A stretch of 64,000 bases of DNA from Sulfurovum sp. (GTDB lineage: Bacteria > Campylobacterota > Campylobacteria > Campylobacterales > Sulfurovaceae). Both the position numbers and the translations under genes were made by a program. Below the pieces are notes generated by a model, which saw only the letters and a list, made by a program, of their open reading frames with translations, ran no database searches and was not told the origin of the DNA. This document shows, piece after piece, positions 3,896 to 64,000 of this stretch. The DNA lies in NCBI GenBank assembly GCA_002733215.1, contig NVUY01000005.1, positions 65,057-129,056 on the forward strand, given 5' to 3'. Positions within the stretch are counted from its first letter, which is position 1; each line of letters opens with the position of its first letter.

Positions 3896-4429
3896 ATTAC
3901 TTAGTTATATGTTGAATAGCTAGATTTTTTATGCTAGCTAAATGTAGCCGACTATTTAGTACGTACTTAGTATAACATAAATAGACATCAAATGTATTAT
4001 TATTTATAATAATAATACATTTGCTTGGGAATTTATACTTTTATTATTGTTTTTAGATTGTTGTATTGAAGTAAACACTCCAAAGCAAAGCATGGGAGCG
4101 AGCAAAATCTGTATATGTAGATGATGAGACCACAGCACAACAAAACCCCTTCATCTCCCTCTTCTAAATCCTAATTTTCAAAAATATCTTCATAAATTTT
4201 CATCTTAACTCTACTTTTATCTTGAATTCTAATCGAATTTACTCTGTTTTTCTCTATCTTTTTCATCTATTTTTCACTTTTTGTGCTTTTGTCTGTTTGT
4301 GGGCAAATAGTTTTAGGTTTGCAGCCATACAGGTTATGGTGAAATTTAAGTGATTCCTGAGTAATCCTATAAACCTTGTAGTGGATTGTTTCATTTGGAT
4401 TTTTATAAGAGCAAAGGTATGTTTTTCTC

Positions 4430-4452
4430 GTTCCCACGTTGTACGTGGGAAC
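4430..4452. repeat. REP-like palindrome, left copy flanking RAYT
   Basis: GTTCCCACGT-TGT-ACGTGGGAAC, perfect 10-bp stem and 3-nt loop. Confidence 0.85.
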
Positions 4453-4543
4453 GCATACTGAAGTTAGAAATTAAATGACAATATGACATATTTTTACACT
4501 CCAAAGTTTTTATAAACTATAATACAAGAAAAAAGATAAAACT

Positions 4544-5077
4544 ATGGGCAGAAGCAGATACAAGATTTATGAGCCAACCCATCCACACTTCATCACATGT
4601 ACCGTACTTCATTGGATACCTCTCTTTACCCGAAAAGAAAGTGTAGAAATACTACTTGAAAGCTTTAGATACCTACAAGAAATAGATAACTTTAAACTCT
4701 ATGCCTATGTGATACTTAAAAACCATATACACATAGTAGCCCAAAGTGACGATATAGGTAAAAGTATGGCAAAGTTTAAAAGACATACTGCCAGAAATCT
4801 CATTATGCTTTTACAAAAAGAAAATGTAAAAACCATACTAGAGCAACTAGCCTTCTACAAAAAGAACCATAAAGGAGATAGAGAGTATCAGCTATGGCAA
4901 GAAGGCATACAGCCAAAACTTATACAAACAGATGTCATGATGATAAGCAAGATTAAGTATATCCATCATAATCCTGTCAAGCGTGGATACATAGATGAGG
5001 CATCACATTGGCGATATTCTAGTGCTAGAGATTATGAAGGAGTGGATGGGCTATTGGAAGTTGAGCGTTTTTGGTAG
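4544..5077 (+). CDS. REP-associated tyrosine transposase (RAYT, Y1/IS200-like)
   Basis: MGRSRYKIYEPTHPHFITCTVLHW...YVILKNHIHIVAQ (HIH), ...IHHNPVKRGYIDEASHWRYSSARDYEG. Confidence 0.92.
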   Translation: MGRSRYKIYEPTHPHFITCTVLHWIPLFTRKESVEILLESFRYLQEIDNFKLYAYVILKNHIHIVAQSDDIGKSMAKFKRHTARNLIMLLQKENVKTILEQLAFYKKNHKGDREYQLWQEGIQPKLIQTDVMMISKIKYIHHNPVKRGYIDEASHWRYSSARDYEGVDGLLEVERFW

Positions 5078-5127
5078 TTTAGATTGGAGTACTCAAGGGC
5101 ATTTGTCCCTTTGGTTGGGCATATGCA

Positions 5128-5149
5128 TTCCCACGTACAACGTGGGAAC
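5128..5149. repeat. REP-like palindrome, right (inverted) copy flanking RAYT
   Basis: TTCCCACGT-ACA-ACGTGGGAA; reverse complement of the left copy with its flanks except one base. Confidence 0.85.
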
Positions 5150-5156
5150 GAGGAGG

Positions 5157-5242
5157 GAGCGGTTGCGTGCAACTATTTATTAGGGGAACACTTTGTCCCA
5201 CTATTACTTTATTTTCATATTAAGAGTATACAAAAAATGTCC
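5157..5242 (-). repeat. Leader repeat copy 1 (truncated after GTTGCACGCAACCGC)
   Basis: Reverse complement reads GTATACTCTTAATATGAAAATAAAGTAATAGTGGGACAAAGTGTTCCCCTAATAAATAGTTGCACGCAACCGC, matching 12817-12901 and 42561-42645. Confidence 0.8.
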
Positions 5243-5426
5243 TGCTATTACAAGAAGTATGTCAATTTGAGATACTTTTGGTACTTCTTTTGAAAAAATT
5301 ATACAATTATTAAGATTGCTTATGTCCTTTTAGTAGGGTATGAGCCAATATTGGGACAAAGTGTTCCTCTATTTATTGATTTCTGGCAATAGAGGACAAA
5401 ATGTCCTGTTACTTTCAAAAAAACAA

Positions 5427-9853: not shown

Positions 9854-10129
9854 TCATTTCCAAGGCGGGGTATATATTTGGTACATCTCCCACCAGTTCG
9901 CAAGATCACGTGCTTCTTTTGATTGTGAATTATTTACAATTTTTTCGAAAGTATCACTATCTAAGCCTTTAAGTACTTGGGATAGCTTTGCTACACAGTC
10001 TACAGGGTAGTCATAAGAGTCTGCACACTCTTGTATCTCTTCTGGAACTTCTTTACCTTGTGATACCAGTACATAGGCATAAAGCTGACAGGTTTTACGT
10101 AGTTGTACTTCTCTATTGGTGGGGCTCAT
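9854..10129 (-). CDS. Hypothetical protein
   Basis: 91-aa ORF with ordinary composition; no recognised domain. Confidence 0.5.
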   Translation of the reverse strand: MSPTNREVQLRKTCQLYAYVLVSQGKEVPEEIQECADSYDYPVDCVAKLSQVLKGLDSDTFEKIVNNSQSKEARDLANWWEMYQIYTPPWK

Positions 10130-10252
10130 GGTTTATTATCCTTTTTTAAAGTTGACAGTTTAACCGTTATTTTTTGGATTTCACTTGAAAGTAAAGAATA
10201 CTTATTTTATATCCAAAATTTTAATTTTAACTAAAATTGCGATTATTTTTAC

Positions 10253-11158
10253 TTATACTATCTTTAGCTTATAAATAGAGAGTATACTCTCTTTGGCATC
10301 TATCTCTTGTCGGACTATGTGTCTGATGGCAACAAAAAGTGGATACTTCTGCCACTCAAATCTATTAAACTTCTCCACCATAAAAAGGGTATGTACTCCC
10401 TCTCCTTTTAGATCAGAATAATCCCCACGAGCCATCTTTTTCCCCAGAGTGTGATGGTGCGAGTTCTCACTGCTTCCTGTTGTGATCAGATCGCCCAGTC
10501 CTGACAGACCATAGCTGCTTGCAGCATTTCCTCCAAAACTCTTTACAATGCCATCAAGCTCTTCCAGAGCCGTCACTGTCAAAAAACCTTGTACATTTTT
10601 GCCCAGATCAAGTTCATCTATCATACCAAAGGCCAAGGCATAAACATTTTTAATGATCACTGACCAGCTGATGCCTCTGATGTCATTTGAACTTTTTAGA
10701 TAGAGGCGGGTCTTTTTAAAAACCTCTTCTATGGTCTCATAGTGCTCTTTATGAGAACATCCAAACTGTGCAAACCCCATCTTCATGCTACATATCTCTT
10801 CTGCGATCATAGGACCGTAGATAAGGGCGTAATTTTTTAGCTTCTTTTCAAATATCTCTGCAGCAGTTTGGGCTGATTCATTGAGACCCTTGGCAATGCT
10901 GATGCAGAGGGTGCTGCTCCTTATGATCGGGAGGAGAGTATTTAAAACGGGATCGTGGGCATTTACGGGGAGACAAAAAATGATGACCTCTGCTTTTTGG
11001 GCTGATTGTTCCAAGGGAACGAAGGTTTTGCCTCTTATGTTGGAGCGGTTCCAGACAGTAACGTCATGGCAGGGTGTTAAAAGGCTTTGAAAAGCGTGCC
11101 CCATTTCACCATAGCCTAAAATAAGTACTTCTTTTTTTCCAGACATGCTAACTCCCAA
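10253..11158 (-). CDS. gpsA: NAD(P)H-dependent glycerol-3-phosphate dehydrogenase-like
   Basis: VLILGYGEMGHAFQSLL, NVYALAFGMIDELDLGKN, GLSGLGDLITTGSSENSHHHTLGKKMARG. Confidence 0.85.
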   Translation of the reverse strand: MGVSMSGKKEVLILGYGEMGHAFQSLLTPCHDVTVWNRSNIRGKTFVPLEQSAQKAEVIIFCLPVNAHDPVLNTLLPIIRSSTLCISIAKGLNESAQTAAEIFEKKLKNYALIYGPMIAEEICSMKMGFAQFGCSHKEHYETIEEVFKKTRLYLKSSNDIRGISWSVIIKNVYALAFGMIDELDLGKNVQGFLTVTALEELDGIVKSFGGNAASSYGLSGLGDLITTGSSENSHHHTLGKKMARGDYSDLKGEGVHTLFMVEKFNRFEWQKYPLFVAIRHIVRQEIDAKESILSIYKLKIV

Positions 11159-11234
11159 TATATGAAAAAGCAGAGCTTTTCCCTCGTTATTTTACTTATC
11201 ATCATAGCATCTGTTTGCATAAGGGAACCTCCCC

Positions 11235-11442
11235 ATGCCATTAAGTTAAGCACTTTTGGAGCAGCGACTTCAGTCGCTGACATGCGACTGAAGTCGCATC
11301 CCCTTACTACATTAAGCTAATAAATTATCCTGCTTGGTCGATAAATCGACCCTACGTGACATATGTTTGTTATATCCGCGTAGGGTCGGTTCACCGAGCA
11401 ACTTCAGAATGACAAAGTAGAAACCGCTTAACTTAATGGCAT
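11235..11442. repeat. Nested palindromic element bounded by a 17-bp perfect inverted repeat
   Basis: ATGCCATTAAGTTAAGC (11235-11251) ... GCTTAACTTAATGGCAT (11426-11442); internal GCGACTTCAGTCGC-TGACAT-GCGACTGAAGTCGC (11264-11297) and CGACCCTACG...CGTAGGGTCG (11347-11388). Confidence 0.85.
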
Positions 11443-11473
11443 TGATGGTCACCTCTAAAAACGAGAGAGGTAT

Positions 11474-12721
11474 TTAACCTAACTTGCCAGCCAAATACCC
11501 AGAGGCAAAAGACCACTGCAAATTATAGCCGCCACAAGGACCATCTAAGTTCATCACTTCCCCACAAAAGTAGAGTCCGTTTATCTTCTTACTTTGCATA
11601 GTGTAAGGGTCTATCTCTTTGAGATGTATGCCTCCACGGGTGATCATCGCCATTTTGAAGCCGTCATGTCCGTTGATGGTAAGCGGTGTCCATGCGAGGA
11701 GTTTGATGAGTTTGTCTCTGGCAACACCTGTTTGTTGACCTAGAGCCAGGGCAGGGTCAACTTCTGCGAGCTTGCAGAGTTCACTACTTACAGACTCAGG
11801 AAGTAAGCTTTGGATTAGTTGCAGTGTATTACAGTGGGGGTCTTTGAGCAGTTCTTTTTTAAAGTGTTCACGTATCTGCTCTTCATTCATCCCCTTGGTA
11901 AGGTTTGCTAAAATAGGCACTTCCTCAAACTTAGATAAAAGTGGTGTGATCTCTCTTGAAAAATCCAAGACCACAGGACCGCGTATACCACCTTTTGTAA
12001 AGATGAGATCTCCGATGGCAGAGAGTTTTTTATATTTTTTCATATCAACGTGCATGGCGACCTTTGCAATGGTATCTGCTCTACAATTTCCCACCCAGGT
12101 CTCTTTCACTTTCAGAGGCATCATGGCAGGGTAAAGGTCAGTCACTTTGTGTCCCACAGACTCTGCCATAGGGTAACCGTCTCCTTCCGCTCCAAGTACC
12201 GGGTACCCCATACCTCCAGAGGCTATGACAACGGCAGATCCATAAAAAGTATCGCTCTGCGTATGTACACCGGTCACTTTAACGCCATCATGTTCTAACG
12301 TTTCTACTTTTTGAGAACAGAGTACCTTGATGCCTAAGTGTTGCATTTCCTGTTCCATGGCATTAATGATAGTAGAGGAGCTGTGTGTCACAGGAAAAAC
12401 ACGGTAGCCGTCAGGTGCATGACTCTCCACACCGATCTCTTTAAAAAATGCCATGAGTGCCTTATGGTCCAAGGCTTCAAGAGCAGGGGTCATAAAACGT
12501 CCGTCACGTCCAAAACGTGCCATAAAATCTTCATTTGAAAGGGTATTTGTCAAATTACAGCGTCCACCACCCGTAGCCTTAAGCTTTGCGCCTATCTTTG
12601 AAAGTTTTTCCAAAAGAAGTACAGACTTACTAGTATTAGTATTTGCACGTGCCGCAGTAATGGCAGCCATCATCCCCGCTGCTCCTGAACCTATAACGAT
12701 AAGATCATACTTTTCAAGCAT
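11474..12721 (-). CDS. HI0933/YhiN-family NAD(P)/FAD-dependent oxidoreductase
   Basis: MLEKYDLIVIGSGAAGMMAAITAA, GAKLKATGGGRCNLTN, C-terminal GLYFCGEVMNLDGPCGGYNLQWSFASGYLAG; start set to MLEKYD rather than the 12778 ORF start. Confidence 0.9.
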   Translation of the reverse strand: MLEKYDLIVIGSGAAGMMAAITAARANTNTSKSVLLLEKLSKIGAKLKATGGGRCNLTNTLSNEDFMARFGRDGRFMTPALEALDHKALMAFFKEIGVESHAPDGYRVFPVTHSSSTIINAMEQEMQHLGIKVLCSQKVETLEHDGVKVTGVHTQSDTFYGSAVVIASGGMGYPVLGAEGDGYPMAESVGHKVTDLYPAMMPLKVKETWVGNCRADTIAKVAMHVDMKKYKKLSAIGDLIFTKGGIRGPVVLDFSREITPLLSKFEEVPILANLTKGMNEEQIREHFKKELLKDPHCNTLQLIQSLLPESVSSELCKLAEVDPALALGQQTGVARDKLIKLLAWTPLTINGHDGFKMAMITRGGIHLKEIDPYTMQSKKINGLYFCGEVMNLDGPCGGYNLQWSFASGYLAGKLG

Positions 12722-12816
12722 AGCTTTCCTTTGCGTAATGATAGCAAAAAGTAGGGGAATATTGTACCACAAGGACATTTCCTCCCGTTAGTCAGGTCAT
12801 ATATTTTAGAAATAGT

Positions 12817-12887
12817 CAGACACTTTTGTTATACTACTAATATGAAAAATAAAGTAATAGTTGGACAAAGTGTTCCCTTAATAAATA
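12817..12887 (+). promoter_or_regulatory. Leader repeat copy 2: promoter/attI-like segment upstream of cassette array 1
   Basis: Contains TATACT (12830-12835) and GGACAAAGTGTTCC, ends AATAAATAGTTGCAC; near-identical to leader copies 1 and 3. Confidence 0.55.
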
Positions 12888-12920
12888 GTTGCACGCAACC
12901 GCAAAGCGGATGCGTGCAAC
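12888..12920 (+). repeat. 33-nt hairpin at head of array 1
   Basis: GTTGCACGCA-ACCGC-AAA-GCGGA-TGCGTGCAAC; 10-bp exact terminal inverted repeat. Confidence 0.85.
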
Positions 12921-13003
12921 GGGCGTGCTGATCACTGAACGTGACCAACCAATGCGAAACTAAAGTTTCTCATCGGCTGTCGCTTACCCACGTCCCCGTT
13001 ATC
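12912..13003 (+). repeat. attC-like site A
   Basis: R''-like GCGTGCAAC, L''-like CGTG, VTS-like hairpin CCAATGCGAAACT-AA-AGTTTCTCATCGG, L'-like CACG, R'-like GTTATC. Confidence 0.6.
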
Positions 13004-13028
13004 ATACAAATGAATATATTGGAAATGA

Positions 13029-13157
13029 ATGGCATCTGCTCAATCTTATGAAATTACTTTAAAAAACAATACGACAGAAAAAGAAGCTATTCTATTTTTA
13101 TTAGAAAACGATCCATCTTTTATTGAGCCAGATAAAGAAAGTAGAAAAGTGGGATAG
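13029..13157 (+). CDS. 42-aa small ORF in cassette A
   Basis: MASAQSYEITLKNNTTEKEAILFLLENDPSFIEPDKESRKVG; the only sensible ORF of the 12998-13223 cassette unit. Confidence 0.4.
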   Translation: MASAQSYEITLKNNTTEKEAILFLLENDPSFIEPDKESRKVG

Positions 13158-13215
13158 AAGACATTACAAAGAATAAACGCATTCAATATCAAATTAACTT
13201 ACAAACTAAACCAAC

Positions 13216-13288
13216 ATGATAACAAGTACGTGGAACGCGATATTTTACCCAAGGGCGGGTAAAATATCGCTCACGACGAACGTTATAC
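13216..13288 (+). repeat. attC-like site B
   Basis: ATGATAAC-AAGTA-CGTG-GAAC-[GCGATATTTTACCC AAGGGC GGGTAAAATATCGC]-T-CACG-ACGAAC-GTTATAC; 14-bp perfect apex stem, CGTG/CACG and ATAAC/GTTAT arms. Confidence 0.7.
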
Positions 13289-13305
13289 ACAAAAAAGGAG
13301 TTATA

Positions 13306-13722
13306 TTGAATCCAAGAATTAGCATGATTACTCTGGGAGTAAAAGATATAGTTCAGTCAGTAAGATTTTATAGAGATGGTTTGGGTTTTCCTCAGAGGGA
13401 TTCACCACCTGAGGTTGCATTTTTTACGCTCAATGGTTCTTGGCTTGGACTCTATAACAAAGATGATTTAGCTAAAGATGCGTCTGTTTCACCTAAAGGT
13501 GAAGGTTTTAATAACTTTACACTTTCCCATAATGTCGAATCAGAAAAAGAAGTTGAAAAGGTTTATGCACAAGCACTAGATGCTGGTGCAACTTCTGTAA
13601 AATCTCCACAAAAAACTTCATGGGGTGGTTTTCATGGATATTTTAAAGACTTAGATGGACATCTTTGGGAAGTAGCATACAATCCATTCTTTTGGGTAGG
13701 ACCTGAAACCAAAGATGTATAA
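13306..13722 (+). CDS. VOC (glyoxalase/bleomycin-resistance) family protein, cassette B
   Basis: AAGGAG RBS then TTG start: (M)NPRISMITLGVKDIVQSVRFYRDGLGFPQRDSPPEVAFFTLNGSWLGLY...GYFKDLDGHLWEVAYNPFF; stop codon lies inside the GTATAAC motif. Confidence 0.9.
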   Translation: MNPRISMITLGVKDIVQSVRFYRDGLGFPQRDSPPEVAFFTLNGSWLGLYNKDDLAKDASVSPKGEGFNNFTLSHNVESEKEVEKVYAQALDAGATSVKSPQKTSWGGFHGYFKDLDGHLWEVAYNPFFWVGPETKDV

Positions 13723-13765
13723 CAAAAACGAGAAACGCACTAATTTACCCTGCGGGGAAAGGAAC
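13717..13765 (+). repeat. Partial attC-like site C (left half plus apex)
   Basis: GTATAACAAAAACGAGAAACGCACTAATTTACCCTGCGGGGAAAGGAAC; left arm resembles site B, no L'/R' right arm seen. Confidence 0.5.
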
Positions 13766-13768
13766 TAA

Positions 13769-14245
13769 ATGCTAGAAGAAGCCTTATACCGTATAGAAGT
13801 AACTAAAAAAGAGAAACTCGGTTATCTTGACTTAAGAGGTCTAGAGCTCTTAAGCATTCCACAAGAGATACTGGAAGTGCCTTGGATTGGAGCACTTTCC
13901 TTGTCAAATAATAAAATATCGGATCTTAATATTCTTTCTCAAATGAGACAGCTCCACAAGTTGGCACTGACGAATAATTGTATAGAAGATATTTCTGTTT
14001 TAAAATTGATGCCAAAATTACGATTTATTTTTTTAGGCAATAACCTCATTAAAGATATTAGTAAGATCAGTACCCAGGAAAGACTAAAAAAGCTGGTTTT
14101 AAATAGCAATAAAATCGCATTTCTTCCTGATTTAAGCCATCTCAGCCTTTTAGCATATTTAGACATTGATGACAACCCATTAACCCCGCCTAGCGTGGAA
14201 GAAATAAAAAGTATGTTGCCTTCTATCAAGATTTATAAATATTAA
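13769..14245 (+). CDS. Leucine-rich repeat protein
   Basis: LDLRGLELLSIPQEIL, LSLSNNKISDLNILSQM, LALTNNCIEDISVLKLM, FLGNNLIKDIS, LVLNSNKIAFLPDL. Confidence 0.85.
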   Translation: MLEEALYRIEVTKKEKLGYLDLRGLELLSIPQEILEVPWIGALSLSNNKISDLNILSQMRQLHKLALTNNCIEDISVLKLMPKLRFIFLGNNLIKDISKISTQERLKKLVLNSNKIAFLPDLSHLSLLAYLDIDDNPLTPPSVEEIKSMLPSIKIYKY

Positions 14246-18357: not shown

Positions 18358-21300
18358 TTACGAAGCAACCAAATACTCCTCATTCCTCATCTCTGCCAAA
18401 TGAGCAATATGTTCAAACACCTTTTTATTTTTAAGCATAAAGAGTTCTCTATTATATGAACTTGGTAACTCTTTATCGAGTACACCTCGTATCTCTGCTT
18501 CTACTTTTTCTACTTCTTGTTTCTCTTTATACCAAGGGTCTCTAAAAAGTTCTTCTCGTTTTTCTTTTAGTCTAGCCAATAGTGCCACTGCTGCTTGTTT
18601 TACTTCAGATTTTTCTTTTTTACTTAACTTCTCTTTTTTGAGCAAGTCAAATATCTCCAGCTCTTGTTCACTTAATCCTTCCCTTGCGGCTCTTGTATCT
18701 TCCTCATCCATTTCACCAAAAAGCCCAAGCAACTCATCATATTTTTCTTCTATGGTCATGCTGCCGTTATTGTACTCTTCTATGATAGCTTCAAACTTCT
18801 CTAAAAACTTACCACGTGTTGCATTGGCTGCCATCATCTGTTTTAGCTTTATCTCCATCAGCTCTTTTAGGTTGCTGTATGCGATGTTCTTATGCTCTTT
18901 TTTGGGGAACTCTTCTTTGAGCTTTTCTATGTCAAGCTTTGCCAAGTCTATCTGCTTGTATTCGGTTATCTTTGCACCCTCACCGTCAAGGTCACCTTCT
19001 CTTACTACAGACTCATCGAGCAGTTTATCTAAATCTACTCTGGCTTTTTGAAGTTCATCATCTTTGTCTAGCTGACGGCTAATGATATCTTTTAAATACA
19101 GTAGCACATCTCGCTCTTTTTTGAGCTGTGCTTGTGCAAATACTTCTGGCTTAGCAGAATCAAACAAACTTACGATGGTATGCACATACAGGTTAAACCC
19201 TTTACGTTTCTCTTCGCTTACCAACACTTTATCGGCATAGTCAGTAAAAAGTTCTATCTCTCTAAAACCTTTTTCTTCCATCTGAAGTATGGCATCTATA
19301 TCTACATCCAACTCTAACAAAAATGACTTACACTCAACTATGGCTTGTGCCAACAAATCCAAAAGTGCATCAAAATCCTGTACAGGCATCTCGTCTTCCC
19401 CCTCACTAGAACCTTCTGCATAGTCACTCAATGCCTTTTTCAAGTTTCTAAATACACCAAAATAGTCGATAATAAGCCCATTTTTCTTCGCCTCAAAGAC
19501 TCTGTTGGCTCTGGCAATGGTTTGCATGAGATTATGGTTTTTCATGGGTTTATCTAGGTAAAGTGTAGAGACTGACGGTGCATCAAAGCCTGTCATCCAC
19601 ATGGCAGTAACAAAGACTATACGGTAAACATTGTCAGGGTCTTTGAAGTAGTCTTCTATGTCTCGTCCGTCTTCATCTGGACGATCCATTAGCTTACGGT
19701 GAGGACGTATGTCTAGTCCTTTTTCATCAAACTTTTCTCTTTCATCTTTGTCAGACCCTTCTTGACTGATCACCACTGCCATCTTTGTCTCTTTGAGAAA
19801 GTCTATCTCATCTTGTATCTCTCTTTTTATAGAGGCATCTCTTTCTTTAGACTTTTTCTTGTTTAGTTCACGTATCTTTTCTGAGACATAACGTTTTACC
19901 ATCTCATACATCTTTACAGAGGTAAATTTATTGATAGAAACAACCATGGCTTTCATGGGTTTTCTATTGCCCTCTTCATCTTTTACATTGAGACGTTGTG
20001 GGAAATGGTTTACGATGTGCTGGGCTATCTCTTCTAGTCTGTCTTCTCTTGTAACCACTTTGACTAAAGTACTGTACTCTTTGTCTAGTTTCTTTTTAGC
20101 ATCATCTTCAAGGTCATATTTATCTACAATGTCCGCTGCTTCATATATGAGGTCTTCATTGACATTCTGTACTCGGGGGACTGCTTTTTTGTAAAACAGT
20201 GGCACGGTAGCACCATCTGCGATGCTTTGTGCGAAGTTATACTCAGATACATAGTCACCAAACCACTCTTTGGTGAGAGAGTTTTTAAGTATGGGTGTTC
20301 CTGTAAATGCTACTCTCTGTGCCTTTGGTAAGGCTATACGCATGTTTTCACCTAAGCTTTTGTAGTTGGTACGGTGTGCTTCGTCTACTATGAGTATCCA
20401 GTCGTCTCTGTCAGACTTTTGGGTATAGGTTTTTCCTTTGGCGATGCCGAAGTTAAAGATGGTAGTAAAGAAAAAAGACTTGTTCGTCCCCAATGCCTCT
20501 GCTAGTTGTTTTTTGCTTCCGTTTCCTTTGGCTCTGTATTGGTTTTTGGTTGACTTCTCTTCACCTGAAAGTGCCAAAGTCTCCGTGTCTAAAAAGTTTT
20601 TAAATATCTGGTCATCCAAGTCATTTCTATCTGTGACTATAAGAAAAGACCAGTTCCCTACCAACTTACGGTTCACTTTCTTAGAGAAAAATATCATCGA
20701 GTAAGACTTTCCAGAACCCTGTGTATGCCAAAATGTCCCTAATTTACCAGAACCGTCACGGTTCTTTAAAGACTTTACCGTTGCATTGACACCCAAGTAC
20801 TGATGGTTTTTAGCGATGATTTTTGTCTTTTTTCTGTGGTACAGTACGAAGTTTTCTATATAGTCTAACAGTACTTTAGGACTACACAAACTCTCTGTGG
20901 CTATCTCTAGTGAGAGTTTGTTTCCCTCTGCTTCTATTTGTTCTAAGGTTTTTTGTTTGCTGTTTGTACTACTGTCTTCTGTTCTTGTCCATGTAAAAAA
21001 GTGTTCCCACTGTGCAGTAAAGCTTCCTATGCGTGTTTGTATGCTGTTGGAGATGAGTACAAAGACGTTGTAGTAAAAAAGCTGTGGTATGTCTGCTCTG
21101 TAGTTTTGCAGGTTGTCATCGTAGCCGTCTTTTACTTTTTTACTGGCATTTTTGAGTTCTACCATGACCAGTGGCAGTCCATTGACATAAAGTATAAGGT
21201 CGGGTCTTCTTCGTCTGTTGTTTCCCAGTTGTTCTATGGTGAGTTGTGAGACAACATGGTAGAGGTTTTGGCTGCTGTCGTTGAAGTCTAAGACAGAGAC

Positions 21301-21627
21301 TTTTGTACTCTCTTCTTTTCCTTCATCGTTGCTAAAGCTTACAGGTACACCCTCTTTTATGAGTGTGTAGACTTCTTGGTTGGCTTCCATCTCACTGAGG
21401 CTTACACGTTTTTGGGTGAGTTGGGCTATGGCATCGTCTATGCTACTCTTGGGTAGTGTGGGATTAAGGTGGGTTAGTGCTTCACGAAGTTTGTCTACAA
21501 GCACTACATCTTTAAGACTTTTGCGTCCTACGAGCTTGTCTTTCCATGCATCTATGTGTTCAAAGCCTACTTCTTCAAACAGTGCTATGTCTGCTTCTTC
21601 GATGTCATTTTCGCTAATGTGTGCCAT
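18358..21627 (-). CDS. hsdR: Type I restriction endonuclease subunit R
   Basis: RPDLILYVNGLPLVMVELKN (nuclease), WHTQGSGKSYSMIFF (Walker A), ILIVDEAHRTNY, RVAFTGTPI. Confidence 0.95.
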   Translation of the reverse strand: MAHISENDIEEADIALFEEVGFEHIDAWKDKLVGRKSLKDVVLVDKLREALTHLNPTLPKSSIDDAIAQLTQKRVSLSEMEANQEVYTLIKEGVPVSFSNDEGKEESTKVSVLDFNDSSQNLYHVVSQLTIEQLGNNRRRRPDLILYVNGLPLVMVELKNASKKVKDGYDDNLQNYRADIPQLFYYNVFVLISNSIQTRIGSFTAQWEHFFTWTRTEDSSTNSKQKTLEQIEAEGNKLSLEIATESLCSPKVLLDYIENFVLYHRKKTKIIAKNHQYLGVNATVKSLKNRDGSGKLGTFWHTQGSGKSYSMIFFSKKVNRKLVGNWSFLIVTDRNDLDDQIFKNFLDTETLALSGEEKSTKNQYRAKGNGSKKQLAEALGTNKSFFFTTIFNFGIAKGKTYTQKSDRDDWILIVDEAHRTNYKSLGENMRIALPKAQRVAFTGTPILKNSLTKEWFGDYVSEYNFAQSIADGATVPLFYKKAVPRVQNVNEDLIYEAADIVDKYDLEDDAKKKLDKEYSTLVKVVTREDRLEEIAQHIVNHFPQRLNVKDEEGNRKPMKAMVVSINKFTSVKMYEMVKRYVSEKIRELNKKKSKERDASIKREIQDEIDFLKETKMAVVISQEGSDKDEREKFDEKGLDIRPHRKLMDRPDEDGRDIEDYFKDPDNVYRIVFVTAMWMTGFDAPSVSTLYLDKPMKNHNLMQTIARANRVFEAKKNGLIIDYFGVFRNLKKALSDYAEGSSEGEDEMPVQDFDALLDLLAQAIVECKSFLLELDVDIDAILQMEEKGFREIELFTDYADKVLVSEEKRKGFNLYVHTIVSLFDSAKPEVFAQAQLKKERDVLLYLKDIISRQLDKDDELQKARVDLDKLLDESVVREGDLDGEGAKITEYKQIDLAKLDIEKLKEEFPKKEHKNIAYSNLKELMEIKLKQMMAANATRGKFLEKFEAIIEEYNNGSMTIEEKYDELLGLFGEMDEEDTRAAREGLSEQELEIFDLLKKEKLSKKEKSEVKQAAVALLARLKEKREELFRDPWYKEKQEVEKVEAEIRGVLDKELPSSYNRELFMLKNKKVFEHIAHLAEMRNEEYLVAS

Positions 21628-42409: not shown

Positions 42410-42560
42410 AGGACAAAATGTCCTTTTATTGGGCTATTTGACAAATCAAGGAACACTTTGTTGAAATAACGGCTATTATCTGTCTAAAATGACATTAGTA
42501 ATTATTATAATACTCTACATATCCATGATATAACTTCTATTTTGGCTATTTGCATCATTA

Positions 42561-42630
42561 TCAGAACATTTTGATATACTCCTAATACGAAATAACGTAA
42601 TAGCAGGACATTGTGTTCCGTTAATAAATA
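42561..42630 (+). promoter_or_regulatory. Leader repeat copy 3: promoter/attI-like segment upstream of cassette array 2
   Basis: Contains TATACT (42575-42580), GGACATTGTGTTCC and AATAAATAGTTGCACGCA; homologous to 12817-12887. Confidence 0.55.
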
Positions 42631-42663
42631 GTTGCACGCACCCGCGGAGCGGATGCGTGCAAC
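42631..42663 (+). repeat. 33-nt hairpin at head of array 2
   Basis: GTTGCACGCA-CCCGC-GGA-GCGGA-TGCGTGCAAC, homologous to 12888-12920. Confidence 0.85.
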
Positions 42664-42697
42664 GGGCGTGCTGATCACTGAGCGCGCCCGTTGTGTG
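42657..42697 (+). repeat. attC-like site D
   Basis: GTGCAAC-GGGCG-TGCTGATCACTGAGCG-CGCCC-GTTGTGTG. Confidence 0.6.
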
Positions 42698-42779: not shown

Positions 42780-44822
42780 ATGGCACAATCAATAGAACCA
42801 AATATTACAGAGTTAGCAAATGGCTGGCTAAAATCTTATGGGTTAGATTATAAACTTGAACAAGAATCTTTTAATTCAAACCTTACAAATGAGCATCAAA
42901 TAGATAAAGCTCTTAAAGAGTACGAATCAAAAGGTGGAGGAAAAGGGGGTAACAGACCTGATACAAAACTATTAAGAGCAGATAAAAATTCAAATTACTT
43001 TCCAATACTCATTGAATACAAAGGGCTTAAAGGTAAATTAGAAAAGCTTAACTCTGATGCACAAGTTGAAAATAAAACAGCCAAAAGTGAACCAAATTAT
43101 AAAAATATAAAAGAGTTTGCTGTAAATGGTGCAGTTCATTATGCAAATGCACTCTTACATCATACTAGCTACACTGATATTATTGCTGTTGGTATGACGG
43201 GCCATACAGATGCAAAGGGTGACATTCAACATCAAATCGGTGTCTATTTTGTCTCAAAAAGCAACCTCGGAGTTGGACAAAAAGTTGGAGATTTTTCAGA
43301 TTTTTCTTTTTTAGCAGATGAAAATTTTGATAGCTTTATTGAAAAAGTAAAAAACTTACATCTCTCGTCAGATGAGCTAGACGAACTCAAAGCACAAAAA
43401 GAGAAAGAGATTGATGCTAGTTTAGTGAAACTAAACAATCACATCTATGAAAATGAAAAAGGCTTGGGAGAAAATGACCGTGTTTATCTTGTGGCGGCTT
43501 CCATTATCGCTACTATTGGCATACCGAACAAAGTTCCTGTTCTTGAAAAAGATGATTTAAAATCACAAACATATTCTGGTGGAACAGATGGTGATATTAT
43601 CATTCGTAGAATTACCGCTTTTTTAAACGAAAAGGGCATTCCTCAAGAGAAGAAAGAGTTAATTATAAGAACACTTTCTAACACACTTTTAACTGAAAAT
43701 ATCAATAAAGTACAAGATGGTGAGAGTCAACTTAAACGAGTATTTTCAAAAATTATGGATGACATAGGGATATATTATAAAATTGGTTTAACAACTGACT
43801 TTACGGGCAAACTATTTAATGAGATGTATGGATGGCTTGGTTTTACACAAGACAAACTCAATGATGTAGTTTTAACTCCCTCTTATATTGCTTCTACCTT
43901 AGTAAAGCTTGCAAGAGTAAACAAAGACTCTTATGTGTGGGATTTTGCCACAGGTTCAGCTGGACTTTTGGTTGCGGCCATGAATGAGATGTTAATAGAT
44001 GCCAAAAATAGTATTACTTCACCTGATGAACTTACTCAAAAAGAGATGAAAATAAAAGCAGAACAACTTCTAGGCTTAGAGTTACTCTCTAGTGTCTATA
44101 TGCTGGCAATCTTAAACATGATTTTAATGGGTGATGGAAGCTCCAATATTTTAAACAAAGATTCATTGGTAGATTTTGATGGAAATTATGGTTTTGGAAA
44201 AACTGATGAAAAATTTCCAGCGAATGCCTTTGTCTTAAATCCTCCATACTCAGCAGATGGAAACGGTATGGTTTTTGTCCAAACAGCGCTTAACATGATG
44301 AACAGAGGATATGCCGCAATCATCATTCAAAACTCAGCTGGTTCTGGAAAAGCAAAAGAGTACACTCTAAAAATACTAGAGAAGCATACCTTAGTAGCTA
44401 GTATCAAAATGCCCATAGATATATTTATAGGAAAGGCTAGTGTGCAGACCAATATTTATGTTTTTAAAGTAGGTGAAAAGCACCACAAAGATGAAATGGT
44501 AAAGTTTATAGACTTCTCAAACGATGGCTACGCAAGAAGTAATCGTAAAAAAGCAAGCAACAACTTAAAAGACACAGGCGATGCAAAAGAGCGATACAAA
44601 GAGCTAATAGACTTAGTGCGTTTTGGGAAGAGTAAACTCAATATTTTTAGTGATAAAGAGTACTACGAGGGTAACATAAACCCAACAAGTGGTGCAGACT
44701 GGAATCAATCAGCACCCATAGACACTAAGCCTACTTTGGAAGATTTTAAAAAAAATGTAAGTAATTACTTAGCGTGGGAAGTCTCTACTCTTTTAAAACA
44801 AAGAGGTGATGAGGGAAAGTAG
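42780..44822 (+). CDS. BcgI-like fused restriction endonuclease-methyltransferase (type IIB/IIG-like)
   Basis: N-terminal PD-(D/E)xK-like RPDTKLLRADKNSNYFPILIEYKG; MTase VWDFATGSAGLLVAAMNEM and NPPY (AFVLNPPYSADG). Confidence 0.82.
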   Translation: MAQSIEPNITELANGWLKSYGLDYKLEQESFNSNLTNEHQIDKALKEYESKGGGKGGNRPDTKLLRADKNSNYFPILIEYKGLKGKLEKLNSDAQVENKTAKSEPNYKNIKEFAVNGAVHYANALLHHTSYTDIIAVGMTGHTDAKGDIQHQIGVYFVSKSNLGVGQKVGDFSDFSFLADENFDSFIEKVKNLHLSSDELDELKAQKEKEIDASLVKLNNHIYENEKGLGENDRVYLVAASIIATIGIPNKVPVLEKDDLKSQTYSGGTDGDIIIRRITAFLNEKGIPQEKKELIIRTLSNTLLTENINKVQDGESQLKRVFSKIMDDIGIYYKIGLTTDFTGKLFNEMYGWLGFTQDKLNDVVLTPSYIASTLVKLARVNKDSYVWDFATGSAGLLVAAMNEMLIDAKNSITSPDELTQKEMKIKAEQLLGLELLSSVYMLAILNMILMGDGSSNILNKDSLVDFDGNYGFGKTDEKFPANAFVLNPPYSADGNGMVFVQTALNMMNRGYAAIIIQNSAGSGKAKEYTLKILEKHTLVASIKMPIDIFIGKASVQTNIYVFKVGEKHHKDEMVKFIDFSNDGYARSNRKKASNNLKDTGDAKERYKELIDLVRFGKSKLNIFSDKEYYEGNINPTSGADWNQSAPIDTKPTLEDFKKNVSNYLAWEVSTLLKQRGDEGK

Positions 44823-44881
44823 AGTCCCCACTTAACGAAAAATTAGAAAATGTTGAGTGGGGAGAATTTAGATTAGGGGAT

Positions 44882-45946
44882 TTGTTTGAGATTTTGACAA
44901 CGAAAAAAAAGTTCAATGCAATTGATGTGCAATTTGGTGGTAAATACAGATATATTGCACGTGGAGAAAAAAATAATGGTATTCGAGGCTATATTACAAA
45001 AGATGTAAAATATCTAAATGAAGCCAATACAATTTCATTTGGGCAAGATACAGCTACAATGTTTTATCAAAATAAGCCATATTTTACTGGTGACAAGATT
45101 AAAATATTTCACCCTAAAAATCATATAAAACTAAATAAAGATAATGCACAATTATTTATAACTACTATGAATAAAACTTTTTCAAGTTTTAGTTGGGGAA
45201 GTAGTTCATATAATGTTTCCATTTTAAATGAAACTAAAATCAAACTTCCCATTGAAAATGGGGAGATAAATTTTTCTTTTATGGAAAACTTTATAAAAGA
45301 ACTAGAATCAGAACGAATAGCCCAGCTAGAAGCCTATCTATTAGCTAGTGGATTGAAAGACTACACTTTAACTGCACAAGAACAAAAAGTATTAGATAAT
45401 TTTGAAAATATTGAATGGGAGGAGTTTAGACTCGGAGCTTTATTTGAAAAAATAAAGACAAAAAAATTATCTTTCAAAGCAGATGAACTACCAAAACAGA
45501 TAATAGGAAAATATACACTTCCCTGTCTCACATCTAGCTTCCAAAACCAAGGATTAAACTATTTTGCACCTAAAGATGGGGCAACTATTTTAAAGAATGT
45601 AATTTCGATTCCTTCAAATAGCGATATTTATCGAGCTTACTTCCAATCAAATGAATTTACAGTTTTATCTGATGCTTATGCAATTAATTGGGTTTATGGT
45701 GATGCACAACTATCTCCTAATCAGTATTTATTTACAGTTCCATGTATCAATAAAGTAACAGATTTATCTATATATTCATACAAAAATAAATTGGGTGGTT
45801 GGAATGTTGTAAGAAATAAACACATTCAATTACCTATCAAAAATGATAAACCTGATTATAAAATAATGGACACTCTTATTTCTGCCATTCAGAAATTGAT
45901 AATCAAAGATGTTGTTTTATACACTAATAAAAAAGTAGGTACATAA
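44882..45946 (+). CDS. BcgI-like specificity subunit S (true N-terminus probably upstream; see findings)
   Basis: FGGKYRYIARGEKNNGIRGYI, TISFGQDTATMFYQNKPYFTGDKIKIFHPK; second half repeats FENIEWEEFRLGALFEKIKTKK. Confidence 0.85.
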   Translation: MFEILTTKKKFNAIDVQFGGKYRYIARGEKNNGIRGYITKDVKYLNEANTISFGQDTATMFYQNKPYFTGDKIKIFHPKNHIKLNKDNAQLFITTMNKTFSSFSWGSSSYNVSILNETKIKLPIENGEINFSFMENFIKELESERIAQLEAYLLASGLKDYTLTAQEQKVLDNFENIEWEEFRLGALFEKIKTKKLSFKADELPKQIIGKYTLPCLTSSFQNQGLNYFAPKDGATILKNVISIPSNSDIYRAYFQSNEFTVLSDAYAINWVYGDAQLSPNQYLFTVPCINKVTDLSIYSYKNKLGGWNVVRNKHIQLPIKNDKPDYKIMDTLISAIQKLIIKDVVLYTNKKVGT

Positions 45947-63709: not shown

Positions 63710-64000
63710 CAGAGCAGAGGGGCAAACACTTTCATAATATTTTCAAGCGCTTCACGTACTGTAGGTGGATATTAAGTTGTAAAGGTGTGATGTCGATGGG
63801 AACTCCTCTACATTGATTATATCATTATTTTTTTTCGATACGTCTGCTTACCTTATAATTTGTTATGTTAATATTAGAGATCCCCTGTATTCAATATAAA
63901 AGCCAAAATTTAAATCTGAAGTGCAATTTTTGAAAATTTGAAAATTAAAAGTTGTAAATTTAGATTTGAAGAGGTTAAATGCTAGAATCTTACTTCAAAT

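Follow-up and report, generated by a model that had tools for sequence, protein, structure and literature searches.

Within a 64,000-nucleotide stretch of DNA, here called the window (C28:65057-129056), a short run of genes is laid out in the manner of integron cassettes. The window belongs to a 2.65-Mb Sulfurovum-like draft genome in 47 contigs that is 85%-complete. We asked whether this locus is a genuine integron array and, if so, what heads it and where its enzyme is encoded. The original prediction, made from the window alone, took it for a CALIN, a cluster of attC cassettes with no nearby intI, and considered such a locus unexpected in a Campylobacterota-like genome. The latter view does not hold, as integrons and CALINs have already been reported there, including in Sulfurovum sp. 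NBC37-1 (two CALINs) and Sulfurimonas autotrophica (PMC10295459; also PMC8618304). We find a real array of integron cassettes here, one that has no adjacent intI and is headed by an attI.

Anatomy of the cassette array

The array consists of the following features, in window coordinates.

12811..12890, plus strand: attI core (short version), ending in ...GGACAAAGTGTTCCCTTAATAAATA|GTT; equals C28:77867-77946, scores 66.9 bits with profile R1, which was built including this site, and aligns with intI-adjoining attI
12888..12920, plus strand: ORF-less hairpin 'mini-cassette' of 33 bp, GTTGCACGCAACCGCAAAGCGGATGCGTGCAAC, read from the sequence
12914..13004, plus strand: site A, attC-like; R'' GTGCAAC ... 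GGGCGTG / CACGTCCC ... R' GTTATCA
12998..13281, plus strand: cassette 1; its sole ORF, of 42 aa (about 13029-13158), has no function assigned
13217..13288, plus strand: site B, an attC of classical form; L'' has an extra G and the VTS stem is 14 bp long; matches attC model R2 and folds as attC
13282..13723, plus strand: cassette 2, bounded by the pair GTTATACA / TGTATAAC
13306..13722, plus strand: ORF of cassette 2, glyoxalase/VOC family protein with a TTG start (PF00903, E 6.9e-16)
13716..13757, plus strand: third attC, truncated; R'' plus part of the stem

The recombination point of the attI core would be the G|TT at 12888. Hairpins equivalent to the mini-cassette also lie 3' of the attI at both intI loci of this genome, on contig C37 and at window 42631. 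We call the third attC truncated because its R'' is present and its R' is missing.

The original prediction rested on three inverted R'/R'' pairs, all of which are present: GTTGCACGCA at 12888 with TGCGTGCAAC at 12911, GTTATCAT at 12998 with ATGATAAC at 13216, and GTTATACA at 13282 with TGTATAAC at 13716. The stop codon of the VOC gene, TAA, does lie inside its own R'', as predicted. Such pairing had been regarded as the hallmark of an integron, but by itself it is no commoner than chance would have it. Of single 8-bp GTT/AAC pairs no more than 1.2 kb apart, the window has 33 and dinucleotide shuffles give 33.2; of two-cassette chains it has four, for a shuffle mean of 2.2. A three-cassette chain appeared in 50 of 400 shuffles (12.5%). 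We thus dropped pairing as sole proof of an integron. If pairing were the whole case, chance inverted repeats with no integron behind them would suffice as an explanation. We find that hardly credible given the homology of the attI to intI-linked sites, the match to the attC model and the presence of IntI in the genome. It is on these three grounds, together with the adjacency of the flanking genes in relatives (below), and not on pairing, that we regard the locus as integron-derived.

Sites A and B had both been said to fold like attC. To search for attC by covariance, as was proposed with the original prediction, we used a model (R2) of 11 attC, taken from contig C8 of the same genome and from related genomes, with site B left out of the build; the training attC show covariation in the L box and an extra-helical base. 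The sole match in the 64-kb window was site B (18.9 bits, E 0.084), in which the R and L boxes pair, the extra-helical base lies in L'' and the predicted long stem is present (13-14 bp, GCGATATTTTACCC). Site A gave no match to R2 in the window search and carries the extra base of its L box on the opposite side. In a DNA search, site A and the attC that adjoins intI on C28 matched at 91% identity across 57 bp. A regular-expression scan for attC, with too strict a pattern, returned nothing in the window, and Rfam matches in the window comprised one tRNA and no integron model. A CALIN is defined by two or more attC with no intI in the vicinity; by that measure the array has one attC supported by the model and one by position and similarity.

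The array is flanked by a gene for an FAD-dependent protein (11474-12778) and a methyltransferase-like (SAM) gene from 14469. In many Sulfurovum genomes these two genes are adjacent, or nearly so, and the array is absent. The closest empty site is that of G129, whose FAD protein is 90% identical; there, 63 bp separate the aligned blocks, with no attI and no cassette. A target-site duplication is not definable at the window insertion against G129, as that genome is too diverged at the junctions. The LRR gene at 13769-14245 may be native to the site: in G087, too, an LRR gene lies close to this locus. The original prediction had named findings that would count against it, and none was obtained in full: an attC match exists, the genome has related sites at other places, and the flanking synteny conserved in relatives is without cassettes.

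Part of this region occurs twice in the assembly. C41:191-3871 (L059) is a near-identical copy (3.7 kb, 99.6%) of window 10046-13726, and its right edge is an IS30-like element that abuts the truncated third attC exactly. The copy may be a strain variant, a duplication or an assembly effect. At the contig end (window 63903-64000) lies IS30-like terminal sequence common to C41, C30 and C18.

Solo attI sites and two distant integrases

A DNA search with the array start as query revealed that its first ~60-80 bp are repeated across the genome. The core ...GTTCnnTnAATAAATA|GTT also stands at the end of the intergenic region that lies upstream of each intI gene, and adjoins intI in relatives (e.g. 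G086, G108 and G082); the window core and the intI-linked sites have the core ...GTTCnnTnAATAAATAGTT in common, with G|TT at the cassette junction. Because its core recurs at both intI and beside intI in relatives, we describe the array as attI-headed. With profile R1 we count 11 solo and two intI-linked sites in this genome, three of the solo sites being in the window.

C28, solo attI (R1): 34448, 70227, 77867 (the window array), 107613
Other contigs, solo attI (R1): C37:2352, C8:2258, C8:6544, C38:71475, C43:30001, C44:28855, C6:59694
Further R1 matches: C41:2956, the near-identical copy of the window array; C38:94951, at a contig end with intI-upstream sequence
Window 42411..42633, plus strand: second solo attI, a long unit that starts, immediately behind the stop codon of the gene upstream of it, with the palindrome GGACAAAATGTCC; R1 match C28:107613-107689
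Window 42631-42663, then 42657-42697: hairpin and short attC-like site 3' of the second attI
Window 5171..5406, minus strand: third solo attI, a long unit; R1 match C28:70227-70305, 74.1 bits

At the third attI the mini-cassette is broken by a REP-like repeat element. The interruption lies within window 4427-5158, where REP-like hairpin repeats (CGTTCCCACG...CGTGGGAATGC) flank a likely REP-associated transposase.

Several solo attI have cassettes on their 3' side, with first genes for an Mrr-like nuclease, an AbiTii-domain protein, an OLD-like ATPase, a pentapeptide-repeat protein, a DUF1643 protein and an N6-methylase (type I). Some of this cargo (AbiTii, OLD-like ATPase, Mrr-like nuclease) looks defence-related. 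The second window attI is directly followed by N6-methylase (type I-like) and specificity-like genes (window 42780-45946), and a type I restriction-subunit-like ORF (window 18358-21627) lies 21 kb from them on the other strand. Of 37 attI (solo and linked), 8 have an exact R-box match together with an attC-like stem no more than 2.5 kb downstream; among control GTTs the figure is 26 of 1480 (1.8%; p 6.5e-7). On C37, a solo attI heads at least three cassettes and the array ends in a mini-cassette/attC segment. This 98-bp segment is 99-100% identical among the C37 solo array, the C28 intI locus and the C30 intI locus, which suggests exchange between the solo array and the intI loci, although gene conversion is also possible.

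Where, then, is the enzyme? The window itself is free of integrase, as predicted: PF00589 has no match in its 64 kb, and in a genome-wide search no intI adjoins the window attI. The wider search recommended at the outset showed, however, that the genome is not without one. Two full-length integron integrases, 97.5% identical to each other, lie at C28:885-1850 and C30:353-1321, the former on the same contig as the array at a distance of ~76 kb. They score 414.9 bits (C28) and 418.6 bits (C30) with TIGR02249, for which the curated cutoff is 265. Their closest solved relative is Vibrio IntI4 (2a3v, E 8e-87), with residues 9-321 aligned through the patch region, and their PF00589 matches carry an insertion of about 30 aa. 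Genome-wide, PF00589 matches fall at C28:1206 (outside the window) and on C30, C11, C23 and C18. No LexA was found above cutoff in the 85%-complete genome, which makes the usual SOS control of intI doubtful. A palindrome, AAAAGTATGTCAATTTGACATACTTTT, recurs in the intI-attI spacer (L001:707-739, L002:178-209) and at about 5255-5290 in the window; it is possibly an operator.

A distant IntI would likely use the solo attI in trans. In such a scheme, IntI made elsewhere in the cell would recombine folded attC with a solo attI, and several chromosomal sites would capture cassettes and express them from a putative attI-borne promoter. The fit between these enzymes and the solo sites may be imperfect. 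The attI beside the two intI score 42-47 bits with R1, versus 64-74 for solo attI, and they are without the GGACA half, differing from solo attI in the outer half of the GGACA palindrome; hence this genome's own IntI may serve the solo sites poorly.

A distant integrase could also have placed cassettes into attG-like genomic sites off target. Insertion by an IntI encoded elsewhere is one proposed origin of CALINs (PMC8618304), and this genome does have a distant IntI. We nonetheless judge this very improbable here, as the array starts with an 80-bp attI-homologous sequence and not with unrelated genomic DNA.

How solo attI may have arisen

Across the Sulfurovaceae, R1 matches occur in 103 of 176 genomes and an IntI-like match, often a fragment, in 63 of 176. 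The attI copies outnumber intI, and multi-copy solo attI recur even in genomes with no detectable intI, such as G090 (13 copies at E <= 1e-4), G138 (9) and G067 (8; closed, 2,562,277 bp). No intI was detected in G067, G090, G098 or G138, which are closed or near-closed, despite their solo attI; many solo attI may thus be relics. G067 is presumably Sulfurovum sp. NBC37-1, and the CALINs reported for that strain (PMC10295459) may be of the attI-headed kind. The attI motif was absent from viral contigs. At some attI junctions (L098, L099, L119, L161), GATGCGA...TCGCATC takes the place of GTT...AAC, with a matching R''.

These observations raise the possibility that the window array was left behind when an ordinary complete integron lost its intI, that it is now inert, and that the many solo attI record independent decays. 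Such loss does occur: the rpiB locus reads rpiB-intI-attI in G108 and rpiB-attI in G067, small intI remnants adjoin the attI at L094, L097 and L098, fragmented or frameshifted intI copies are frequent among the Sulfurovaceae, and there are genomes with many attI and no intI. Yet an intI remnant is missing upstream of most solo units, and in relatives the FAD and SAM genes flanking the window array are adjacent with no integron at all. Nor would random decay give the single sharp left boundary common to solo units with unrelated flanks. In eight such units homology starts at the palindrome GGACAnnnTGTCC, 220-234 bp before the GTT, and identity across this boundary is 32% upstream versus 68% inward. 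At intI-linked loci the same palindrome immediately precedes the intI start. Decay of complete integrons is thus a serious contender as a general account, though one that we are inclined to doubt. We read part of the solo attI as products of intI loss; others, with their common sharp boundary, look like a discrete, dispersed unit with GGACAnnnTGTCC as its left end.

Some units have further palindromes around them. A 33-bp family, AAACCTTATAA-N11-TTATAAGGTTT, occurs as a lone palindrome at one flank and, at the other, as a module of two that lie 81 bp apart (L206-L212, L217 and L221; in this genome C6:59648, C43:29815, C8:2532 and C39:79657). The reversed pattern, used as a control, had no match in any of seven genomes. 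These palindromes bracket single genes with or without attI, and they look like the ends of an undescribed non-autonomous mobile unit. As for an autonomous transposon behind them, none was identified; the loci bracket various single genes.

Solo attI might accordingly be passengers of a non-autonomous MITE-like element, with integron recombination incidental to their spread. In several genomes the solo attI are bracketed by AAACCTTATAA-N11-TTATAAGGTTT, with the palindrome at a fixed 108-110 or 259-265 bp upstream and the two-palindrome module after the cassette, a pattern seen also at C6 and C43 of this genome, and the same palindromes bracket genes that have no attI. One attI-bearing unit stands next to different flanks in G091 (C1:517000-526000) and in G098 (C1:682000-690500 and 1079000-1098000), with the junction at such a palindrome. 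The bracketing palindromes are absent, though, from all three window attI, and the search yielded no transposase and no defined target-site duplication. For the sites described here we consider such an element unlikely to be the explanation.

Our preferred explanation, which we hold to be probable, is that the locus is a small attI-headed array at one of about eleven solo attI, served by IntI in trans, the solo attI stemming from intI loss together with the spread of a discrete unit. The observations that carry it are the attI homology, one attC by covariance model, the cassette anatomy, the presence of IntI genes elsewhere, and the fact that the orthologous site in relatives lacks the array. 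Against it stand the failure of site A in the attC model, the truncation of the last attC and the draft state of an 85%-complete genome. The solo sites would have arisen partly by local loss of intI and partly by the spread of an attI-bearing unit with GGACAnnnTGTCC at its left end.

Scattered attI and known integron systems

Integrons are typically described with one attI close to the integrase (PMC9024848). The window array is like a CALIN in having attC cassettes and no nearby intI, and unlike one in being attI-headed; the label 'CALIN' understates it, since the array has an attI. As in a sedentary chromosomal integron, IntI, attI, cassettes and attC occur within one genome, but here about 11 extra attI are found on different contigs or at distances of tens of kb, where textbook integrons typically have one near the integrase (PMC9024848). 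Delta-attI-type cassettes of mobile integrons carry displaced attI sites that are recombinogenic for IntI1 (PMC12901181). They resemble our sites in placing attI-type sites away from the usual single position, and differ in that theirs are inside class 1/2 cassette arrays, whereas the Sulfurovum attI units are dispersed across the chromosome. MITE-flanked integrons and integron mobilization units find a parallel in those solo attI units of relatives that are bracketed by short palindromic repeats; the window copies, in contrast, are unbracketed, with no transposase or target-site duplication found. We found no published description of dispersed, multiple or orphan solo attI in a search confined largely to openly accessible papers. 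Integrons in Campylobacterota and CALINs in Sulfurovum were known already; what is unexpected is the presence of many scattered attI docking sites in one integron-bearing genome.

In the textbook integron, good expression is limited to the one or few cassettes that directly follow its single attI. We tentatively suggest, while giving it somewhat less than an even chance, that the Sulfurovaceae have a distributed integron, in which one or two IntI would serve many scattered solo attI, each of which would take up and express a first cassette of its own, and in which attI would spread without intI as a short discrete unit with GGACAnnnTGTCC as its left end. If this is true, about a dozen attI would amount to about a dozen first-cassette positions at once, with the capture sites separated from the enzyme. 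Such attI would be missed by present tools, as IntegronFinder 2.0 detects no attI outside class 1 (PMC9024848). Since current integron finders do not see solo attI, some loci now classed as CALINs may in fact have an attI at their head, which bears on how CALINs originate.
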